A DNA stretch of 64,000 nucleotides from Chalara sp. BL73 (taxonomy: Eukaryota > Ascomycota > Leotiomycetes > Helotiales): contig CAKJVC010000150.1 of assembly GCA_918026815.1 (NCBI GenBank), positions 1,054,001-1,118,000 on the forward strand. Direction: 5' to 3'. A program made the translations under genes and the position numbers. Below the pieces are notes generated by a model, which worked only from the letters and a program-made list of their open reading frames with translations, was not told the origin of the DNA and did not search any database. This document shows, one piece after another, positions 31,820 through 58,019 of this stretch. The stretch's first letter is position 1, and every line of letters starts with the position of its first letter.

Positions 31820-33212
31820 ATGTCAATCCCTAGTACTCAAAGTTTTCAAAGTTCATGCCCGTGTAACATCATCATTATAGGAGCTGGCTTGGCCGGGCTG
31901 GCCTCCGCGCTTGCACTGAACCAAGTAGGCCACCGTGTGACAATTCTCGAGCGCACTCCTGAGCTACTACATGTAAAGTAGTCCAGTTTTCATTACTATC
32001 TTATCAATCCGGCCTTAGTATTAACCACTGCGCACGAAAAAGGTCGGGGCAGGCATCCAACTCTCTCCTAACGCAACCCGCATCCTGCACAAGTTGGGCG
32101 TCCTCGCCGACATCACTCCACACGCTTACCAACCTGAGACCGGCAGCCTACGCAGCTGGCACAACGGGAGCTCCCTCGCTCGCTCCCTGCCGCCAGCGTC
32201 GGTCATAGAGAAGACCTACAAGGCACCATATATTGTGGTCCATCGTGCCAATCTCCTCGCGGTTCTAGTCTCCGCAGCCACGGCGCGTGGTGTCAGTGTC
32301 CGCCTCGGCTGCGAGGTTGTGGAGCTCGATCTTTCCCAGAAGGCCGCGGTGCGTCTCTCCAGTGGGGAGTATATCGACTGCGACGTCCTCCTCGGTGCGG
32401 ACGGAGAACGCTCGTTCTGCCGGGATGTTCTGCTCGGTAGGTCCGACCTCCCCAAGCCCACGGGGGATGTTGTCTTTCGTATTGTCGTGTCGCGCAGCGA
32501 CATACTGGCCGACAAAAGCCATCCGTCATGGGAGATCGTGCAGCAAGGAAGTGTGAATGTGTGGATGGGTCCCGATGCACATGCCGTCTCCTACCTTCTA
32601 AACAACAACGACATCCTAAATATTGTCCTAATCCGGAAGGATGACATGGAGCGGCCAGAAGACGTCATGTATGGCCCGCAACACGCTGACCTCGAGGATG
32701 TGCAGCGCGCCTTTGATAGCTGGGACCCGGCACTCCGCGCACTACTCGAGGTGCCCGGCCAATCTGCTTGTATAAAGTGGAATTTATTGCAGATTAATGA
32801 GCTGGCAGGCTGGGCCCACGAAGGGGGAGCCCCATTTTGCCTCATTGGCGACGCGGCACATGGGATGCCGCCTTATTTGGCACAAGGCGCTGCAATGGCT
32901 TTCGAGGACGCCGCCGTGCTCGGAGCCATCTTTGCGCGGGTGTCAGACAAGACGCAGATTCTGGATGCGCTCAAGGTGTTTGAGGCAGTAAGGAAACCAA
33001 GAACGGACAAGGTCAAGGAGCGCACGCTGGCGAGGAAGGTAATGTATGACATGCCAGATGGGTTGGAACAGCAGGAGCGCGATGAGAAAATCGCCTTAGG
33101 TCCTGGAAATTGGTCTCCAGATGAGTTGGCGGTTCCAGACTTTCAGAACTGGCTATGGGGATATGATGCGGCGGCTGATGGGGCACAAGCGTGGGAACAA
33201 TATTTACGGTAA
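31820..33212 (+). CDS. FAD-dependent monooxygenase (salicylate-hydroxylase type)
   Basis: Two exons, 31820-31972 and 32043-33212, give 440 residues. Residues 17-40 are the FAD-binding Rossmann start (IIIIGAGLAGLASALALN, then ILER). The splice restores VGAGIQLSPNATRILHKLG, conserved in this group. The DG motif is LLGADGERSFCRD and the second FAD motif is LIGDAAHGMPPYLAQGAAMA followed by FEDAAVLG. Group A flavin monooxygenases use NAD(P)H and O2 to hydroxylate or epoxidise aromatic or prenylated substrates; in clusters they often act after a prenyltransferase. It lies 516 bp upstream of the DMATS gene on the same strand. I chose the ATG at 31820 because it places the FAD motif at the usual distance; earlier codons add nothing conserved. 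Confidence 0.88.
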
Positions 33213-33728
33213 ATGTGACCGTTTTGAGAAGTTGTTTTTAATCGAAGTATGTGTGAGAGCTACATCTTTACCTAAAGCTCTCATATCAAGGCTTGCCTAT
33301 GGACTTGCTGGGGCATAACTCCCGCAACACGATTGTCCTACACGCGCGTCACGTTTATGCGTTCCGGGCTTGCTAATATTGTAGGCTGAAATTATGGGGG
33401 CTAAGAGAAGCATACTAGGTTCCCTTTTGTACTGCCTACGACCTGCATATAGCTATTGGCTTTTCACCTTGTATTACGGTAGCATTTCTGCGAGATATCA
33501 TGCGCTGTCATCTCATCCGCGAGAGGACCAATACTGTTGCTCAATTATCTGCAACACGTTTTGCCCAACCAAGGTTTGGATAAATCAGGCTACAACGATA
33601 TAACTAGACAGTGATATATATCCGTTAGTATTTGCGAATAACGCTTCGCTGACCCAAAACTTGCGTGCCGCCTTTCTTAATAAGCGCTCTTTACTACTCC
33701 CTCCCTAGGTCATTGAACACGAGTCAAC
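33213..33728. other. Intergenic, DMATS promoter
   Basis: Separates two genes read in the same direction; contains the promoter of the prenyltransferase. No recognised site. Confidence 0.5.
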
Positions 33729-35078
33729 ATGGCGATAACAGGAACTCAAGGATCCGTCGTGTTTCGCAAGCTAGCGTTGCCAAACACAGACTCGCAGTAC
33801 TGGTGGGAGACGACGGGGCGCCACATAGCCAATATGATGGACGTGGCTGGCTATCCAGAGGAAACACAACGTACCTTCCTATTGTACTACCGTGATACCG
33901 TGTGCCCTCTTCTGTGCGGCATCCCCAACGCCAGCGACCCAAGCCAGGCCAAAAGTTGGACGTGGGACGGGTCAACGCATGAGTATAGCTTCGAGTTTAA
34001 GAAAGGCGGGATAAGGCGGCCTGAGGTGCGTTTCGTGCTCGATGCCAGTCGCTTGCGACCCGTAGATACTGCGAACCCTTTCAACCCATTGCAAACCGAT
34101 ATCCTCATCGAGACATTTGGTCCTCGAACCCCCGGGTTCGACAATACATGGTATCGGGCGCTCAAGCGGCACTTTGACTATTCATACCTCCCAGCAAATG
34201 AGCAACACCGCTTGGCGGTCGAAGCGGGCCACCTGTCGCCTATCCTAGTCGGCTTCGACATCGGGCGAGAGCTTCCGTCTCCCACAGCGCTGCCCGTCAT
34301 AGGCAAAGCTTATTTCCTGCCCTGCTTCGCAGCTGTCGCGGAGAACAGCATGCGCTTCGCCTGCATCTCCGCTGGTATTCGCGCTCTCCCAGGCATTGAA
34401 CAGTGGCCTAACATCCTCTCCTCCCTTTCCACCATCGAGGAGTACCTCACCACTAAGCCAACAGACTGGGCTAATGGCGCCCGCTACCTCGGCACTGACT
34501 TCTTGTCTCCAGACAACACGCGCCTGAAAATCTACCTCCGCTGTCCGGGCACCAGCTTTGACGATATCTGGGACTATTTTACGCTTGGTGGGCGCATTCC
34601 CGGGCTGGAGGAGGAGAAAGAGAAGTACCGTGACTTTGTCAACCTCCTAGGCGGCGTCACCGCCAAAGATATTGGTAATACAGCCCATAGCAGTGGCATC
34701 GAGACGGCGAACCGCAGGAAGCTGACGACAATATACTTCTCCTTGGACAACCGGCACCCCATCCCCTCACCCAAGGTTGCCTTTTGCGCGCGAAACTTTG
34801 CTGCTAATGATGCGGTTATTGCGCAAGGCTTGGACGCGTGGATGACCAAGTATGGTTGGGGTGAGGAGGCAATATCAGTCGAGGAGCTGGTGGCGAAGGT
34901 GTTTTCACACCGATCACTCAGTGAGAAGGCGGGCATTTTCACTTTCATCGGCTTAGCACGTAAGGACCCCACCAAGCGGGACTTGAGCATACAAACGTAT
35001 TTGTGTCCCGAACTATATGAGAGCCCAAGGGGGCTGGTGGGATTACCGGACACGAAAGAAGAAATATCACTAAGCTGA
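33729..35078 (+). CDS. DMATS-type aromatic prenyltransferase
   Basis: Single exon, 449 residues, the normal length for fungal DMATS enzymes (about 420-470). Family marks in order: YWWETTGRHIANMM near residue 24; HEYSFEF at 84-90, whose Glu85 aligns with the catalytic glutamate that deprotonates the indole; ILVGFDIGREL; RLKIYLRCPG, carrying the Lys and Tyr that bind the diphosphate; LTTIYFSLDN; and TFIGLARKDPTKRDLSIQTY near the end. These soluble ABBA-barrel enzymes transfer dimethylallyl (or longer) groups to tryptophan, indole diketopiperazines, tyrosine or xanthones without a DDxxD motif. The substrate cannot be read from sequence. The neighbours (FAD monooxygenase upstream, SDR convergent downstream) suggest a small tailoring cluster. 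Confidence 0.93.
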   Translation: MAITGTQGSVVFRKLALPNTDSQYWWETTGRHIANMMDVAGYPEETQRTFLLYYRDTVCPLLCGIPNASDPSQAKSWTWDGSTHEYSFEFKKGGIRRPEVRFVLDASRLRPVDTANPFNPLQTDILIETFGPRTPGFDNTWYRALKRHFDYSYLPANEQHRLAVEAGHLSPILVGFDIGRELPSPTALPVIGKAYFLPCFAAVAENSMRFACISAGIRALPGIEQWPNILSSLSTIEEYLTTKPTDWANGARYLGTDFLSPDNTRLKIYLRCPGTSFDDIWDYFTLGGRIPGLEEEKEKYRDFVNLLGGVTAKDIGNTAHSSGIETANRRKLTTIYFSLDNRHPIPSPKVAFCARNFAANDAVIAQGLDAWMTKYGWGEEAISVEELVAKVFSHRSLSEKAGIFTFIGLARKDPTKRDLSIQTYLCPELYESPRGLVGLPDTKEEISLS

Positions 35079-48559: not shown

Positions 48560-49316
48560 TTGAGAAAATTTGATCAGAACTTGTGAATTTCAACTACTTT
48601 GGACTCATCGTGGCAGGAACTATGTGATGGGAGAGTAGCTCGAACAACAGGACATATTGGCTTCGTCAACTGTACTGGGCTACCGAATCGTCTGCTCCTA
48701 TGTTAGCGCGGACTAGATCTCGAGAAAATACCAGTCGTCAACTTACTCTCCTTCAACTGCAGTAATAACAGCCGGCGCAACTCCCTCGCCCGATAAGACG
48801 CTTTATGTCATCCCATAACTGCCTCACCACCGCTGTGAGAGCCCCGCCGCCGTGACTGAAACTCAGAACTCTGTACACAATTCTGCTCGGCAGAGAGGCT
48901 GAAATATAGTCAGGCACATCACGTCCCGTGCTCTAGACCACACGTGACCTATATTAGCCGAGCTCTCAGAGCCCTCGTGTGTCACGAACACGGTCCTATG
49001 AACCTGGAAAGGTGGGTTGTAGGTGCTTCAATACGAAGATACCAAACTATGGAGAAGAGGCGGAGCTCTGGAAAAAACTCTCAACTACGTCTGGCTCTCA
49101 GGCCAGGTGCTACTAGTCCCTATTAGGGAACACACGCAAGTTTGTCATGTGATGACGTGACAGGTGGTGCACGTGATTTCAATTACAGCGCGCTGCCAAG
49201 CCCCCGGATCTGCCTTGTGGGGAATTGAAGACACAAGGCCTTTGAGGGCAGCCAGCAATCCAGTCAGCCAGCAATCATATTAGTGAGAATCGGTAGTTGT
49301 GTGGAGGAAGGAGAAC

Positions 49317-50669
49317 ATGGAGGCCGTGACGCGTCAGTCGAGCCGGGAACGCGTCCAGACGTCGAAGGCATCAGAATGGAGCAAGAGAAGATCTAGAGCG
49401 GTGTCAAGCGATATAGAGGACACGATTGAAGTAATTGAGGAAGGTCCCATTCCATTGCAAACTAGACGAACGGGGATCGGCGCGCATCCCAAGGAACAAA
49501 GTGTAGCGACGAAGGTTAAGGCCCTCGCCGCGAAGGCAGGAGAACGTCCTGCAGCAGCGGCAGCGACCCCGAACCAGCCGGTGCACGAAAAAGCGAATGC
49601 AAGCGTAAATATGCAGATCAAAGTGCTCACTGACTTGGTCAAGTCGCTGTTGAAAGCAGTGGAGGAACAGAAGAAGGAGCACGTGACCCAGATCAAAACC
49701 ATAACGCGGACCTTCACGGAGCAGATAGAAACACTTAAGGCAGAGCTTAAGGCAGAGCTTAAGGCAGAGGTTACAGATATGACGGAAAAGATTCAGACCC
49801 AGCTGTCCAATGCCCAGGCACCGTCAAGCCCATCCCCATCGTATGCAGAAGTCGCCCGAACGCCACCAGACAGCTTACCCAGCAATGTACGAACCCTCTC
49901 CTCCCTGCGCACCACGCCGTCAACAATGACCGATACGCTGTACTGTACGGTTGACACGTCTAGAGTTGGGGAGGGAGAGAGAAGCAAGGCACAACCTGGG
50001 GCAGTTCGGAAGGCAATTGAGGAGGAGATTCGCACCGTGGAAGGACAAGCAAATTGGCGCTGCGCTGCGGTGATCAGAGACGCCAGGAACACGGAACGCA
50101 TCAAGATTGTATGCAGAGACGAAGCTGAACTCCAACGGGTCAAGGAAGCGGCCCAGAAAACTGCGGCCGAGGGAGTCCGAGTGCTGCGAGACCAACTGTA
50201 CCCGGTCAAGGTGGACAATGTCAATCGAACAACTATACTCGATCACGACGGAAATATTTTACCGGGCGCCGCCGAAGTCCTTGGGGAGGAAAACGGGGTC
50301 CACATAGCCAAGATTGGGTGGCTCAGCAGGAAAGACGCGGGTAAAGCTTATGGTTCAATGGTGGTCTATGTCACCAAAGGCAGCGAAGCAGCACGTCTGT
50401 TACAAGACCAATACTTCCATGCCGCAGGAGAGTCAGCCTACACCAGGGTTTTCGAGCCGCGATATGGTCCACAGAAATGCTATCGATGTCAGGAAATCGG
50501 GCACAAAGCGTACTCATGCACGCAACCGCAAGTCTGTGCCAAGTGTGCTCAAGTAGGACACCACCACAGTGAATGTCAAGCAGTAATACCAAAGTGTGTT
50601 ACATGCGGAGGGCCACACGAATCGCTCAGCGGGAACTGCGGAACACGCCACCGCTCCCGGGATGCGTAA
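49317..50669 (+). CDS. LINE ORF1, gag-like protein with CCHC knuckles
   Basis: 450 residues from the ATG at 49317. The middle is a predicted coiled coil with three tandem 12-bp units (CTTAAGGCAGAG) encoding LKAE repeats near residue 140. The C-terminus has zinc knuckles: CYRCQEIGHKAYSC and CAKCAQVGHHHSEC, then a variant CVTCGGPHESLSGNC. Such ORF1 proteins bind element RNA. The stop overlaps the start of ORF2 (ATGCGTAA at 50662-50669), suggesting reinitiation or coupled translation. Confidence 0.88.
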   Translation: MEAVTRQSSRERVQTSKASEWSKRRSRAVSSDIEDTIEVIEEGPIPLQTRRTGIGAHPKEQSVATKVKALAAKAGERPAAAAATPNQPVHEKANASVNMQIKVLTDLVKSLLKAVEEQKKEHVTQIKTITRTFTEQIETLKAELKAELKAEVTDMTEKIQTQLSNAQAPSSPSPSYAEVARTPPDSLPSNVRTLSSLRTTPSTMTDTLYCTVDTSRVGEGERSKAQPGAVRKAIEEEIRTVEGQANWRCAAVIRDARNTERIKIVCRDEAELQRVKEAAQKTAAEGVRVLRDQLYPVKVDNVNRTTILDHDGNILPGAAEVLGEENGVHIAKIGWLSRKDAGKAYGSMVVYVTKGSEAARLLQDQYFHAAGESAYTRVFEPRYGPQKCYRCQEIGHKAYSCTQPQVCAKCAQVGHHHSECQAVIPKCVTCGGPHESLSGNCGTRHRSRDA

Positions 50670-53600
50670 AACCTTTCAAATACTCCAATTGAATGTCCGG
50701 AAGCAGCGAGAGGTGCAACACAGTTTAATGAGTGATGAGCAATTGAAGGATTGTGGAGTGTTGGCGATATCTGAACCATATGCGAGGATCATCGACGGCA
50801 CTTTGGTGACAGCCCCTATGGGACACCCAAACTGGATCAAAATAGTACCCACAGTCCAACGTGTGGAAAGGTGGGCGGTTCGAAGCATGCTCTGGATTCG
50901 GAAGGATATCGAAGCAGAACAGGTGCCAATACAATCATCGGACCTCACGGCAGCGGTATTGCGACTCCCAGACCGGTCGATACTGGTAGTGTCAGTCTAC
51001 GTTGAACCGCAGGATGCAGAGGCACTGAGGGTTGCGATATGCGAATTACACCAGGTAATAAGAGATACACGCAGCAAGATTGGCACCCGCGTGGATGTGG
51101 TACTTGCCGGGGATTTCAACCGGCACGATCAATTATGGGGAGGAGAGGACGTCTCAGGGGAAAGGCAAGGAGAGGCCGACCCGATCATCAACCTCATGAG
51201 TGAGCATGCCCTACACAGCTTGCTCTCGAGAGGAACGAAGACGTGGCAACGGGGGAATCATGAGTCAACAATTGATCTGGTACTGGCTTCCGAGGAATTG
51301 GCAACATCAGTGGTGAAGTGTACAGTCCACACGACCGAGCATGGATCCGATCACAGAGCAATTCAGACAACGTTCGACGTCGCGACGCCGGAACGAGCTG
51401 TTGAAACAAGGCTACTTTTCAAAAATGCGCCGTGGACCGACATAAAAGGCAGGATTACTACCAATCTTCGCTTCGTTCCATTTGGTGGCAGTGTACAGCA
51501 ACAGGCAGATGGGTTGATGACCGCGGTGCTGGAGGCAGTCCATGCACTCACCCCAAAGGCTAAACCTTCACCATACGCGAAGAGATGGTGGACAACAGAT
51601 CTCACACAGCTGCGGCGAGTCTATACGTACTGGAGGAACCAGGCTAGAACGCAACGACGGTTGGGTCGCATGTTTCCTGAACTAGAACAGCAAGCAAATG
51701 AAGCTGCTAAGGAATACCATGATGCTGTCCGGAGACAGAAAAAGGCGCACTGGGAGGACTTCCTCGCAGATGACACAAACATCTGGCAAGCGGCAAAATA
51801 CCTAGATCCTCGTGGCAGTTCAGCATTTGACAAGATACCGCCGCTAACGAGAAGAGACGGATCCACCACGAAAAACAAAACTGAACAAGCAGAGGAACTG
51901 CTGTCGGTGTTCTTTCCCCCACTGCCGGAGAGGATAGAAGATGAAGGACCACGACCACAGCGAACCGCAGTGTCGATGCCTCCCCCGACCATGGAAGAAG
52001 TCGAACGGAGGATGTTCGCGGCGAAGCCACGGAAGGCGCCAGGAGAGGATGGGTTACCAGCCATGGTATGGAAGCAGGTATGGCCAGTGGTCAAGGACAG
52101 GGTGTTGCTCCTCTTTCAGACGTCGTTGGACGAAGGGGAACTCCCTACACAATGGAGAAATGCCAAGATCATACCGCTGAAGAAGCCAAACAAAGGTGAT
52201 TACACGGTTGCAGAATCATGGAGGCCGATCTCGCTGCTCTCCACACTGGGGAAAACACTAGAATCGGTGATTGCTGAGAGAATATCGCACGCAGTAGAGA
52301 CCTTTGGTCTGCTCCCCACGAATCACTTCGGGGCCAGAAAGAAGCGCTCTGCTGAACAGGCACTTTTGCTGTTGCAAGAACACATCTATAATGCATGGAG
52401 ATCAAAGAAGGTCCTGAGCTTGGTTAGCTTCGACGTGAAGGGCGCATACAATGGAGTGTACAAGGACAGGCTGTTGCAGAGACTCGCAGCGAGAGGCATC
52501 CCACCGGCCCTAGTACGGTGGATTGATGCTTTTTGCTCAGAACGCACCGCAACCATACTAGTCAATGGCCACACGTCTCAACAGCAGCCACTGCCACAAG
52601 CAGGCCTACCGCAAGGGTCACCACTGTCGCCAATCCTGTTCCTCTTCTTCAATGCCGACCTAGTTCAACACAAACTGAATGCAAATGGGGGATCAATAGC
52701 ATTTGTGGACGACTATAACGCGTGGGTTACAGGGTCATCAGCGGATGTGAACCGAGAAGGGATTCAAGCTATCATCGACAAAGCAATGGACTGGGAAAGG
52801 CGGAGCGGAGCCACGTTCGAAGGCAAGAAGACAGCAATCATTCATTTCACTAGACGGCATGACCGAATCAGTACCAGACCGTTCACTATCAAAGGTGAGG
52901 CAATCGCACCAAAGGAGGCGACCAAGATCTTAGGAGTCGTTATGGACTCCGGACTCCGGTATGTACAGCACATCGGGAAAGCAACAACCAAGGGCCTTCT
53001 TGCCGCGATGGCATTAAAACGACTACGGCTGGTTTCTCCCTCAACTGCAAGGCAGTTGTTTGGAGCGACGGTAGCGCCAGTCGTGGACTACGCTTCAAAT
53101 GTGTGGATGCATGCTTGCGGGCACAAGGGCATGGCCTTAATGAACCGAATACAAAGAATCGGAGCACAGGCCGTCACAGGAGCTTTTCCGAACCGTCGCC
53201 ACCGCAGTTGCAGAAGCCGAGGCCAGCATACGTACAGTGAGCGAGCGGTTTGCAGAGAGGGCTACGAAAGTGTGGGTCAACATCCGCACGCTGCCCGAAA
53301 CGAATCCAATATCGAAGCTAAACACCAGAGCACTCCGGAGATTCACGTCACCATTGCAAAAGATAGCTTGTGCGCATCAAAACATGCCAACAAATAAGAT
53401 GGAGGTTATTCAGCCTTATGTAATCGCTCCGTGGGAGGAACGGCTCCCCGCTACAATCGACTTCGGAACGGAGGAGATTACCAACATTGCGAACACTATC
53501 TGCGGTATTCGGATTGCGACAAGCTCGTCCGCGAGAAAGAGGATAGTGGGGATGGGAGGAGCCATCCACGACACTCTCGGCATTGTAACAGGTAGAGAAC

Positions 53601-54424
53601 CGAGTGCATACTCGGTCACGCTGGGAGCAAGAACGGAGCAGAACCCGTACACGGCTGAACTCGCCGCGATAGCGATGGCAATGAAGCGCCTACCGCTACA
53701 TCTGGTGGGAAGACAGATCACGATTATTTCAAACAACCAGGGAGCCCTGCTAGCAACGAGCCAACCAAGACATCAATCAGGACAAACCAGCATTAAAGAG
53801 ATTTACGAGGTAGCGTCTGCGCTGAGAAAAGGAGGCAATTCTATCTCGATGATATGGATCCCGTCTCAGGAGAGCTTCGAGCTCGGCAGGAGAGCAAAGG
53901 AAGCCGCACGACAGGCTACCGAGCCAGACCGAACACCACAAGGGCAGTGCTACCAAGCCAAATCTACAACTATCAACAGGGGAAAAGCAGAAAAGGCAAT
54001 AAGGACACTACCAGACGAGGTGGGAAAGTATTCCAGAGAAATAGACACCGCACTGCCAGGAAAACATACTCGTACCCTATACGACGGTCTCAAGCGGAGA
54101 GAAGCGAGCGTATTAGCACAGCTCCGTACAGGAATGGCACGACTGAACGGATATCTTCACCGGATTGGAGCAGCGGAATCTGACCAGTGTGCCTGCGGAC
54201 AGGCAACAGAAACTGTCAAGCACTTCCTTTTCCGATGCACGAGATGGGACGCACACCGAACGCAAATGCTAGCACAGACAGACACTAGAAGAGGCAACCT
54301 CTCCTTCCATCTTGGGGGGAAAGCTCCATCTGACCCAGAGACATGGACACCAAATATAGACGCGGTTCGAGCAACGATCAAGTTCGCCATAGCCACAAGA
54401 CGACTGGACATGGAAGTAGAGTAG
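50662..54424 (+). pseudogene. LINE ORF2: endonuclease, reverse transcriptase, RNase H (one frameshift)
   Basis: Starts at the ATG inside the ORF1 stop (50662). The APE-type endonuclease begins ILQLNVRKQREVQHSL and includes VLAGDFNRHDQLWGG and the catalytic SDHRA. The reverse transcriptase follows: RPISLLSTLGKTLESVI, LVSFDVKGAYNGV, GLPQGSPLSPILFLFFNADL and the catalytic FVDDYNAWV. The first frame runs on to 53397, but homology passes near 53181-53190 (TTTTCC run) to the frame that gives FRTVATAVAEAEASIRTVSE and then an RNase H-like domain (TAELAAIAMAMKRL, ISNNQGALLATS) and a terminal Cys/His motif (CACGQATETVKHFLFRC), stop 54424. The shift looks like one extra base, a mutation or an assembly error. 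The usual RNase H aspartates are not evident. Confidence 0.87.
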
Positions 54425-54540
54425 GCAACTAACTTCCTACAATAGGAAATCCCATTTCTTTCTTTTATCCCGACTAACCCCTTATCACCTCGTGTCCCCA
54501 GCAGGTCTCGCTTCAGTCGCCGACAATAGGACATTGAACA

Positions 54541-55262
54541 CTTGGAGGAATGAACTTCAAGTTAACTTGCCACTAACTACGCACGAGACCACGTGGAATA
54601 TGTGTTACTGAAATCGGAAAATATAAATAGAAGCAGTTCTGTATGGGCTTCAGGAGGCATTAGAAACACCGAAGGAAGCGTATTATGTAATATAGAATAG
54701 GGCCCTTTAGGCTTAGCCGGGCGCAATAAACTACTACTATTCTGCCTTGTGGGGTTATAGGTGGGGGTTTGCCGAACTCTTATCTTTGTTAGGCGGAACC
54801 GTAGAACAGCATGTTTTGTCGCCTGGACGCGGCCATTGCCTCTGTTATCTCTTTTACCTTCCTGTAGGCAATGTCACAATGAGCTTCAGTTTTAGCGTTG
54901 GCGATTCCATCGCAGCAATTGAGTTTGCTAATAAAATCCGCTTCCTCATTTCTCTACTTGTTCGAATGTCTTTCTGCGCATTGCTTAATGCTGCAGACAG
55001 GGGTTGCGGTCTGTGTTTTACAAGGAGGCTGAGCGCGGCGCAACCTCACACCTTCATCTCTACACCTGATGTGTGCATAGTCGCAGCCTGCCTTGAGACA
55101 AAGCGTCAAATAATGATGGATCCTTTTATCCATGCCCGGGTATAAGCAAAGACTTCCAGTTCTAATAGCCCATCGAATCCTTTGTCGGCGGGGTCGAGGA
55201 CTCAGGCTGGACGCGTCCCCACCAACCACGAAGCACTTTGGCGGGAAGGGAGTTTAACAAAT
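54541..55262. other. Region upstream of the Ras-HET gene
   Basis: Contains the NLR first-exon relic at 54879-54943 and, after it, the promoter of the Ras-HET gene. The Ras start codon lies about 320 bp after the relic. Confidence 0.55.
54879..54943 (+). pseudogene. First-exon relic of a fungal NLR or ankyrin protein
   Basis: From the ATG at 54879 the frame reads MSFSFSVGDSIAAIEFANKI, which closely resembles the MSFGFSVGDFIAxxELAxKI start found in many fungal STAND proteins. The frame after it loses similarity, and no NTPase follows before the Ras-HET gene. It is probably a left-over of an NLR gene. Short, so moderate confidence. Confidence 0.55.
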
Positions 55263-58019
55263 ATGGCCTCGAAGGTGAGCGAGTGACCGCCTGCCGTGTT
55301 GCGGCTGGGGAACCAGAGTTTAGTTGCTAATCGACCGGTGCCATAGTTTTTGAGAGAATATAAGCTTGTGGTTGTTGGTGGGAGTGGAGTCGGGAAGTCG
55401 TGCTTGACGATCCAGTTAATCCAGAGCCACTTCGTCGATGAGTATGATCCTACCATCGAAGACTCATACCGCAAACAATGTGTGATCGACGAAGAGGTGG
55501 CGTTACTGGACGTCCTCGACACGGCTGGCCAGGAAGAGTACTCGGCCATGCGAGAGCAATATATGCGAACTGGTGAAGGTTTTCTGCTAGTGTATAGCAT
55601 TACGAGCCGACACAGCTTCGAGGAGATCTTAACGTTCCAACGGCAGATCTTGGCGGTCAAAAAACTGGATTACTTCCCGATTATTGTGGTTGGCAATAAA
55701 TGTGATTTGGAGGACGAGAGACAGGTATCAAAGCGAGAGGGTGAAGCACTGGCGCGTTCCTTTGGCTGCAAATACATTGAGACATCCGCAAAGTGCCGCA
55801 TCAACGTCGACAACGCCTTCTACGACATGGCTCGCGAGATAAGACGCTACAACAAAGAGTCCTCAGTTAGACGGTCGCGTCTTCCTGATTGGAGGCCTCC
55901 GACTAGGACACCGGAAGCTGATTTCGAGTTCGACTTCTATCTCACACCGAAACCCAATATTGATGCTCCTACGCAGGTGAAGAAGACTCTCTACCGATCT
56001 CTAGATTCCGACAATTTCGAGATACGATTATTGAAGGCGCACCCTGATTACCTTGATATTGGCAGTTGTCCGCTAGGGTTTTCGCTGGAATATGCGTCCC
56101 TGATCAATCCACCCGAATACATTGGACTTTCATATTTTTGGGGCGATGCAGAAAAATCGTGGGACACAATGATTGACATCGGTGAACGGTCTTTCTTTAA
56201 GGTGAAAGTCACAGACAATCTTGGGCGAGCTCTCCAGGCCCTTCGGCCTAAACTTGGTACGAAGATGCTCTGGGTGGATGCCTTGTGTATTAATCAAGAA
56301 GATTTGACAGAGCGAAGTCAGCAGGTTCGACTGATGCGGCAGATTTATTCGAGGGCGAAAGAGGTTATTTCTTGGGTTCCGTGTGATACCTGGAATCCAT
56401 ATCGCTTTGGGGGCTATTCCCGCTCGCAGGGAGACGCGATAGAGTCTCTGATCAAAAATAAATTTGATGGAGAGGGAACCAAAGCTCGATTATCACCGCT
56501 CAAGACGCAAGAACACAAGACTGGAAATAGACGGGTGAGAGACGGATGGGAAGTAATTCACGATTTCTTCAGCGAATCTTACTGGACACGCGTTTGGGTT
56601 ATCCAGGAAATAGCTGTAAACCCAAATGCCAAAGTTCTCTGTGGAGAGTTCGAGATCCATTGGGATGATATAGTTGCCGCTCTCATGACGTGGAAGGAAA
56701 ATCCGGACGCGGCACCTCTCCACCAACGAGCTTTTCTCAAGGCTATGCATCTTGCGGAATTTCGGGATAGATTTTCGGTCAAGAGGGAGCCGATAAGCCT
56801 GCTTGATGCTATGCGTTGGAGTTACCAGACCATGGCGACGGATCCGAGAGACAAGATCTTTGGTTTGCTGGGTCTATGTCATGATGGGGATACCTTTGTC
56901 CCTACACCGAATTACAAGCAGCCTCTTGAGGAAATCATTACGGATATGAGTAAAAGAATGATGAGTTTCAATCGCTCGTTAGATCTTATGTGCTTAAAAG
57001 GGGCTTCTTTGTCCCAAGTGAGCAATAAGTTGCCATCATGGACACCGAATTGGATGAACCTTTGGTCCGACCCCTTTCACTCCATGACAATGTACGAAAC
57101 GAGATTCTCAGACTGGCACCGCACCTACCCCTTCAACCCCGTTCACAGGGACTCCACAAACAAGATTTTAAAAGTCAAAGGCACTCAGAGCGGCACGATA
57201 TACCAACTTTCTTCCGTCATGGCTCAGCCGAGCCCCGAGGGACGAGTCAGCCTATCGGTTGAGCCTCGAGCACGCTGGATCACATCTACGGCTTCGCTTG
57301 CCGATAAAAATTCCTCGCTAGGCAGAGCCAATTATAATGACCTCGCAGTGCGAGATTCCATCTGGCAAACTCTGACAATGGGTCTCCTTTCCCCTTGGAT
57401 GTCCGTCGAGTCCGCGGCTATGTGTTTTTCGAAACTTTGGACACCCGAGGGAAGGGGGGCGATTCATAACCTTACGCTGATAGAATGGATTGACAGGAAT
57501 GCGTGGCTTCCATATAGGGACTGGACACTGCGGGAGTGGTCACAGATGAAGGCTCGTCCGCCCTCTCGTTCTCCATCCTCTGCGGGAAGCTGGAGGTTTC
57601 TAAAGCTCAGTCAAAACCAAAGCCAAAATCAAAGTATTGTAGAAAAGGAGAAAACAGAAAACACTATTGAGCAGCTTAATGCATTTATCGACACCCTCGA
57701 GAGTGTCTTGAAGAGCGGGATGCGATTATCTGTCGTCCATGGATTGGATCTGTTATGCAAGGAGTATATCGGGATGGTGCCTCCAAGTGCGAAGCCGTTA
57801 GATCAGGTGTGGCATATTCAAGGGTGCAGTGTGCCGATCGTGTTGAGGGAGTTCGGCGGGAATAGTGGAGAGTTGTGGTACGAGGTCATTGGGGCATTGT
57901 ATTTGCACGATGCAAAGAAAATGTTTGCAACTGAGGAGAAGTGGACAAGGGGCGAGAAAGAAGATAGTGCCGTGATGAGCACACCGAAAAAGGTGGTACA
58001 GGTCTTGAATCTCTGCTGA
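55263..58019 (+). CDS. Ras1-type GTPase fused in frame to a HET-domain protein
   Basis: Two exons, 55263-55274 (ATG GCC TCG AAG) and 55347-58019, with a GTGAGC...CATAG intron, encode 894 residues. The tiny first exon and the splice to [11 protein letters not shown] reproduce the usual start of ascomycete ras genes. Residues 6-174 are a complete G domain: P-loop GGSGVGKS (15-22), switch I YDPTIEDS with Thr40, switch II DTAGQEE with Gln66, NKCD (121-124) and ETSAK (149-153). Ser17 takes the place of human Ras Gly12. Where Ras would have its hypervariable tail and CAAX box, a linker (about 175-215) leads into a whole HET protein: [57 protein letters not shown] and the C-terminal [14 protein letters not shown] motif. 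No stop or splice signal separates the halves. HET domains trigger incompatibility cell death; a Ras switch controlling HET is inferred. Confidence 0.92.

Follow-up and report, generated by a model that had tools for sequence, protein, structure and literature searches.

Does a single gene of the helotialean fungus Chalara sp. BL73 encode a Ras1-type GTPase joined to a HET incompatibility protein, and if so, what could a Ras domain be doing in front of a HET domain? A first-pass annotation of a stretch of 64,000 nucleotides (hereafter the window; G000:C129:1054001-1118000 of a 58.7-Mb genome in 199 contigs) claimed such an in-frame fusion. It proposed either that the nucleotide state of the Ras part gates the HET domain or that the Ras part is a decoy. 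Here we describe the gene, its relatives and the source of its Ras half, and we weigh these two mechanisms against other explanations.

Anatomy and reality of the fusion

Exons 1 and 2 (Table 1) together encode 894 residues, and a single open frame spans both halves. Shuffling the bases 300 times never gave an open run above 154 codons, against 890 in the real frame, and each of the other five frames of 55263-58019 carries 26-49 stops. No stop or splice signal had been seen between the halves, and indeed the frame stays open and a GT[AG][AT]G donor is absent from 55801-56000. The small first exon and the intron position, annotated as usual for ras, recur in the native ras1 of this genome (G000:C7, minus strand; three introns), in which intron 1 interrupts the same place, between MASK and FLREY, is 75 nt long and also begins GTGAGC.

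Table 1. Features of the Ras-HET gene, in positions of the window
Feature	Position	Strand	Description
Exon 1	55263..55274	+	ATGGCCTCGAAG, codes MASK; matches first exon of native ras1
Intron 1	55275..55346	+	72 nt, GTGAGC...CATAG; branch-like CTAAT at 55327-55331
Exon 2	55347..58019	+	Remainder of Ras-HET protein; 890 codons and stop, unbroken
Ras G domain	55362..55844	+	PF00071; exon-2 protein residues 6-166
Codon AGT	55383..55385	+	Ser at the place of HRAS Gly12
Place of native ras1 intron 2 (76 nt)	55461..55462	+	Intron absent in fusion
Place of native ras1 intron 3 (70 nt)	55737..55738	+	Intron absent in fusion
Linker	55857..55985	+	Between Ras and HET parts
HET domain	56118..56609	+	PF06985, residues 258-421; carries 19-letter and 10-letter motifs
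LPSWTPNW	57030..57053	+	Second half of HET protein
C-terminal part of HET protein	57627..58019	+	Modelled as helices and strands at mostly high pLDDT; last residues NLC

Pfam assigns Ras and HET to the exon-2 protein, the remaining listed families being overlapping GTPase models. Both domains are complete, as had been claimed: PF00071 scores 198.7 bits (E 6e-59) over model positions 1-161 of 162, and PF06985 scores 98.1 bits against a cut-off of 22.5 (E 7.8e-28) over positions 1-146 of 146. An AlphaFold2 model computed from a 78-row alignment (mean pLDDT 84.9, pTM 0.70) has folded Ras and HET parts, with pLDDT below 50 at residues 179-208 (55881-55970). Comparison with a viral fold library was uninformative, the 50 rows shown consisting largely of viral GTPases of the Ras, Rab and Ran kinds.

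Of 7,992 candidates scored in a search with the exon-2 protein, at least 552 matched it at E <=0.001. Among the best 120, which were listed, the same domain order recurs in five more Ras-HET proteins, 40-80% identical to the window protein (P0001): P0002 (80%), P0003 (75%), P0004 (65%), P0005 (59%) and P0006 (40% over 72% of the query). P0004, from Hyaloscypha variabilis, bears the database name 'Ras family domain containing protein'; a Ras-HET protein is thus already predicted in the database, its HET part uncommented. The linker motif [ST]VR.S..P.W..P is common to P0001, P0002, P0003 and P0005, as is F.F followed by PK within 3-5 residues. Over aligned residues the linker is identical to that of P0001 at 58% in P0002, 47% in P0003 and 56% in P0005, at 28% over 18 residues in P0004, where it is shortened, and at 15% in P0006. 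Such common linker residues favour one translated protein.

That two adjacent genes were merged by the gene model or by the assembly is extremely unlikely, given one open frame across both halves, the missing donor, and five other sequences of the same order, three of them with the linker motifs; nothing positive in favour of such a merger was found. On account of the open frame and the conserved family we reject an artefact and a pseudogene alike. As read from the DNA, a Ras1-type GTPase, a predicted disordered linker and a complete HET protein lie in one gene, and the fusion is real.

In TOL and PIN-C the HET domain is N-terminal. It is so in BH as well (PMC10890737, excerpt), whereas in the window protein a Ras domain stands in front. 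TOL, PIN-C and BH otherwise resemble the window protein in a full-length HET domain, a PSW.P.W motif behind it (mentioned for TOL and PIN-C) and a long C-terminal part (PMC10890737, excerpt). Induction of cell death is described for other HET domains in excerpts of PMC10890737 and PMC12881547. A fold search gave weak support for a TIR-like fold of the HET part, and no solved HET structure was found by sequence. Two conserved glutamates of the HET part, Glu322 and Glu421, are candidate residues for a putative NAD+ hydrolysis. The genome has a large HET repertoire, with 70 matches to this HET part (62 scored of 453 candidates).

Upstream, at about 49287-54739 of the window, lies a non-LTR retrotransposon with a CCHC frame, an endonuclease and reverse transcriptase frame, and a third frame reaching 54424. 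Its last 320 bases occur at six other places in the genome at 100% (rounded) identity, which points to a recent insertion. Its end is 523 bases upstream of the Ras-HET start codon, and the insertion may have changed the Ras-HET promoter. Nine frames were scanned between 32 kb and 58 kb. Three belong to the retrotransposon; the other six are a DMATS-type prenyltransferase, a FAD monooxygenase, an enoyl-CoA hydratase, an alcohol dehydrogenase, a rhodopsin-domain protein and one without a match, so that none of the nine is a partner gene next door. At 32025-35078 the FAD monooxygenase-like frame adjoins the DMATS-type prenyltransferase, and the two are possibly part of a secondary-metabolite cluster.

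An old copy of ras1 with altered switch residues

The Ras half is closest to the native ras1. By exon, ras1 is 77-93% identical to it against 63-72% for a second Ras gene (G000:C66), which we reject as the source. Over the first 175 residues 18 differ from native ras1 (89.7% identity). dN is 0.066, a figure that includes both branches, and at pS 0.74 the silent sites have reached saturation, which makes the dS of 3.2 unusable as a date. Saturated silent sites with few residue changes indicate that the Ras copy is old and under purifying selection, and on the saturation we reject a recent duplication. That the neighbouring introns 2 and 3 are gone while intron 1 is retained would fit either a partly spliced transcript copied back into the genome or later intron loss. 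P0002, P0003 and P0005 begin at internal methionines, like plain open frames, which suggests that they too lack introns 2 and 3. Residues 1-24 of P0006, which end ATQ directly before WLREYK, may represent intron 1 taken for coding sequence.

The first-pass annotation had recommended a phylogeny of the Ras part. In our Ras tree P0001-P0005 form a clade within fungal Ras1 (96/93). P0006 falls outside it in the free tree, a placement that is unsure (branch 0.64, odd composition, unsettled bootstrap). Terminal branches of the five Ras parts measure 0.09-0.31 against at most 0.08 for Leotiomycete Ras1 rows, and by this measure the Ras part is evolving faster than unfused Ras1. The changes are unevenly placed in the window protein. 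Within the region of HRAS 1-86 it differs from its own ras1 only by G12S and D48E, and from P0236, a Ras1 grouping with Leotiomycetes that serves as our reference row, only by G12S, with 12 changes beyond. Relative to this reference, the effector lobe is changed at 1 of its 84 positions and the remainder at 12 of 80, against means of 1.9 and 10.1 in unfused proteins; by these counts the total divergence of the Ras part is not extreme.

Ras codon 12 is a site of activating mutations. All 120 unfused Ras1-like matches compared (the best 120 of 7,978) have Gly12, as do 52 of the 56 readable other long Ras proteins among the matches listed (22 unreadable). Among Ras-HET proteins position 12 is Ser in P0001 and P0006 and Gly in P0003 and P0004 (the P-loop is unreadable in P0002 and P0005). 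This gives Ser12 in 2/4 Ras-HET vs 0/120 unfused proteins (Fisher 7.9e-4, a value in which kinship of the rows overstates independence). Across 12 nucleotide and switch positions, 5/6 Ras-HET vs 3/119 unfused Ras1-like proteins differ from P0236 (Fisher 1.4e-6; the list is partly post hoc and the rows are related, which again overstates independence). Changes in switch I are P34A in P0003, S39N in P0004, S39T in P0002 and I36V in P0006, and position 34 changes affect the response to GAP. P0004 keeps Gly12, Pro34 and Gln61, and P0005 is unchanged at the readable key positions. The altered switch can also reflect decay of an unused GTPase.

What would these residues do to a switch? Under the first of the two proposed mechanisms, the Ras part would be a working GTPase that GEF and GAP of the cell switch between GDP and GTP; its state would gate the HET part, and a disturbed Ras pathway would lead to death. 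The window protein does retain the P-loop, Thr35, DTAGQ, NKCD and ETSAK, its model has RRAS2, choanoflagellate Ras and KRAS as best PDB neighbours, and P0003 and P0004 keep Gly12. Against this stand Ser12 in the window protein and P0006 and the missing anchor: the window protein ends VVQVLNLC, with no CAAX box, where native ras1 ends CVIM, and without an anchor it would probably not meet membrane-bound regulators. Replacement of glycine 12 renders Ras insensitive to GAPs (PMC7710308, excerpt), so gating by RasGAP cycling fits badly in this species, and we regard the nucleotide switch as unlikely. G12S has intermediate transforming strength (PMC6813200, excerpt). A Ras decoy with this residue would probably be biased to the GTP state; Gly12 in P0003 and P0004 means that a GTP lock is not general among Ras-HET proteins.

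Repeated joining and exchanged N-terminal domains

On a tree of 48 HET rows, P0001-P0005 group by their HET parts in a single clade (100/100), which sits among HET proteins with short starts and no recognised domain. The HET part of P0006 groups instead with P0038, which carries SH3 and ZZ domains (100/99), and with P0037 (100/98). A single clade for the six HET parts is rejected (delta lnL 326, p-AU 5.9e-5), whereas a single clade for the six Ras halves is not (p-AU 0.476); one origin of the six proteins is thus rejected for the HET half only. It follows that Ras either entered this HET family on at least two occasions or was shifted about inside it: the trees would accommodate two separate captures of ras1 as well as the transfer of a single Ras module from one HET gene to another.

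These trees bear on the notion that an old Ras copy was caught by chance before a HET gene and persists as a mere folding or expression tag. Its HET relatives lack such a Ras part, and the longer terminal branches of the Ras parts would be in keeping with it. The very low dN beside saturated silent sites, the frame continuous in 6/6 predicted sequences, and a Ras domain that joined the family twice or moved within it all speak against a passenger, which we consider very unlikely.

Other domains occupy the same position in this HET family. On the 48-row tree parsimony requires at least 10 changes of N-terminal type, and 2 for Ras vs the rest, when P0037 and P0132 are counted as CBM48-like and the 27 rows scored 'none' are those with nothing recognised. 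The AMPK1_CBM model passes the Pfam cut-off with P0131 and P0033 and stays below it with P0036, P0034 and P0123, and PF16561 is precomputed for P0032, P0035 and P0126. A profile of four CBM-type N-termini matched 7 of 24 others (P0123, P0124, P0036, P0034, P0135, P0126 and P0042) at 88-98.5% probability, and P0037 (66%) and P0132 (62%) weakly; the other 15, Ras, Rab and SH3 rows included, fell below 1%. Fronts of the AMPK1_CBM/CBM48-like kind are thus seen in P0032, P0033, P0035, P0123, P0124, P0126, P0131 and others. In P0007-P0023, which are the closest relatives by HET, no domain is recognised at the N-terminus.

P0031, from H. finlandica, carries a Rab-like GTPase in front of HET. It is an annotated gene model, as is P0004, and the named relatives with GTPase and HET are Hyaloscypha species, order Helotiales. 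P0031 ends oddly, and the GTPase part is not seen in the one close relative listed, P0122 (89% over 46%), which makes Rab-HET the least secure of the fusions. Q61L-type Rabs are GTP-locked. Among readable long GTPase proteins 53/54 have Ser at position 12 (44 unreadable) and 53/54 have Gln at the Gln61 place. Since Ser12 is usual in these proteins, only the Leu at the Gln61 place is telling in P0031. Two basidiomycete long GTPase proteins, P0064 (Tulasnella; also with a kinase domain) and P0163 (Panaeolus), likewise combine Ser12 with Leu at the Gln61 place. In the genome of the window no second small-GTPase-HET gene was found among the matches listed: with P0031 as query the GTPase part appears only in the window's gene and HET parts elsewhere, and other Ras matches all lie in frames of at most 298 codons.

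The variety of fronts also bears on a further explanation, in which the Ras part would take HET to Ras-binding proteins and so set where, rather than when, it acts. The effector lobe of the window protein is nearly unchanged, and CBM48-like, SH3 and Rab-like fronts are also binding types. Switch I, on the other hand, varies in the relatives P0002, P0003, P0004 and P0006, and a targeting module seems to us quite unlikely.

A candidate death sensor with an exchangeable bait

Of the two mechanisms in the first-pass annotation, a decoy fits the sequences better than nucleotide gating. It is favoured by the lack of an anchor, the faster Ras part, the exchanged N-terminal domains and Ser12. Counting against it, the P0007-P0023 proteins without a recognised N-terminal domain imply that a bait is dispensable for the HET part. 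We put at about an even chance that Ras-HET senses and kills in one protein, with a bait that can be exchanged and with the Ras part as the decoy.

In the model that we infer, the C-terminal two thirds would be a HET death protein, made up of the effector domain (TIR-related according to the literature) and C-terminal parts. The N-terminal third would be a soluble Ras1 copy, held out as bait on a flexible linker of about 45 residues. Lacking a lipid anchor, the fusion should not signal as Ras. Ser12 would probably make it hard for RasGAP to switch off, leaving a standing GTP-like Ras surface, and the otherwise nearly unchanged effector lobe would keep that surface on offer. A non-self factor would then engage it: once hyphae have fused, this could be a partner protein from a different strain, or else it could be a parasite factor that binds or alters Ras. 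Engagement would release the HET part or bring HET parts together, and the cell compartment would be killed.

How does this compare with known systems? Fungal Ras1 is alike in sequence, first exon and intron 1, whereas the fusion lacks the CAAX box and introns 2 and 3, has Ser12 and is joined to HET. HET-E, HET-D and HET-R (HET-NACHT-WD40) likewise pair a HET effector with a nucleotide-binding domain; in Ras-HET a small GTPase rather than a STAND NTPase stands before HET, and no WD40 was found. Plant NLRs with integrated decoys (PMC5658179, excerpt) also carry a copy of a cell protein on an immune protein, varying among relatives. In contrast, the fusion has no NB-ARC, NACHT or repeat families in a Pfam scan at E up to 1, HET takes the place of TIR or CC, and the bait is N-terminal. 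Ras-HET is no NLR with an integrated decoy, yet its mode of action may be similar. For NLRs of fungi, decoy domains are described as possible and poorly documented (PMC5658179, excerpt).

The earlier statement that no Ras-HET protein had been described agrees with the literature searched, a body that leaves subscription papers and preprints outside its scope. None is described in the excerpts of PMC10197012, PMC12881547, PMC10890737, PMC7849911, PMC9815663, PMC4986451, PMC1325252 and PMC5658179. Words starting with 'Ras' are author names only in those of PMC10890737, PMC4986451 and PMC1325252, and PMC5604411, the one paper found to contain both 'Ras domain' and 'HET domain', names them separately in the excerpt. 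Nor did the literature searched yield a description of an integrated-decoy system without an NLR core in fungi.

More tentatively, and with rather less than even confidence, we suggest that Helotiales possess one-protein death receptors, each a HET part with an exchangeable bait (carbohydrate-binding, SH3-ZZ, Ras or Rab-like). Small GTPases would have been acquired on as many as three occasions, with substitutions of a GTP-holding type in two of the Ras baits (Ser12) and in the Rab-like one (Leu at the Gln61 place). A standing active Ras or Rab would then be a trap for non-self, an integrated decoy without an NLR core.

Where the front domains of a HET family are exchanged and can be recognised, they point to candidate triggers, and a Ras bait substituted at codon 12 opens the question to direct tests with existing Ras reagents. 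If the decoy reading is true, the integrated-decoy principle of plant NLRs would also apply to a protein of a fungus that lacks any NLR core.
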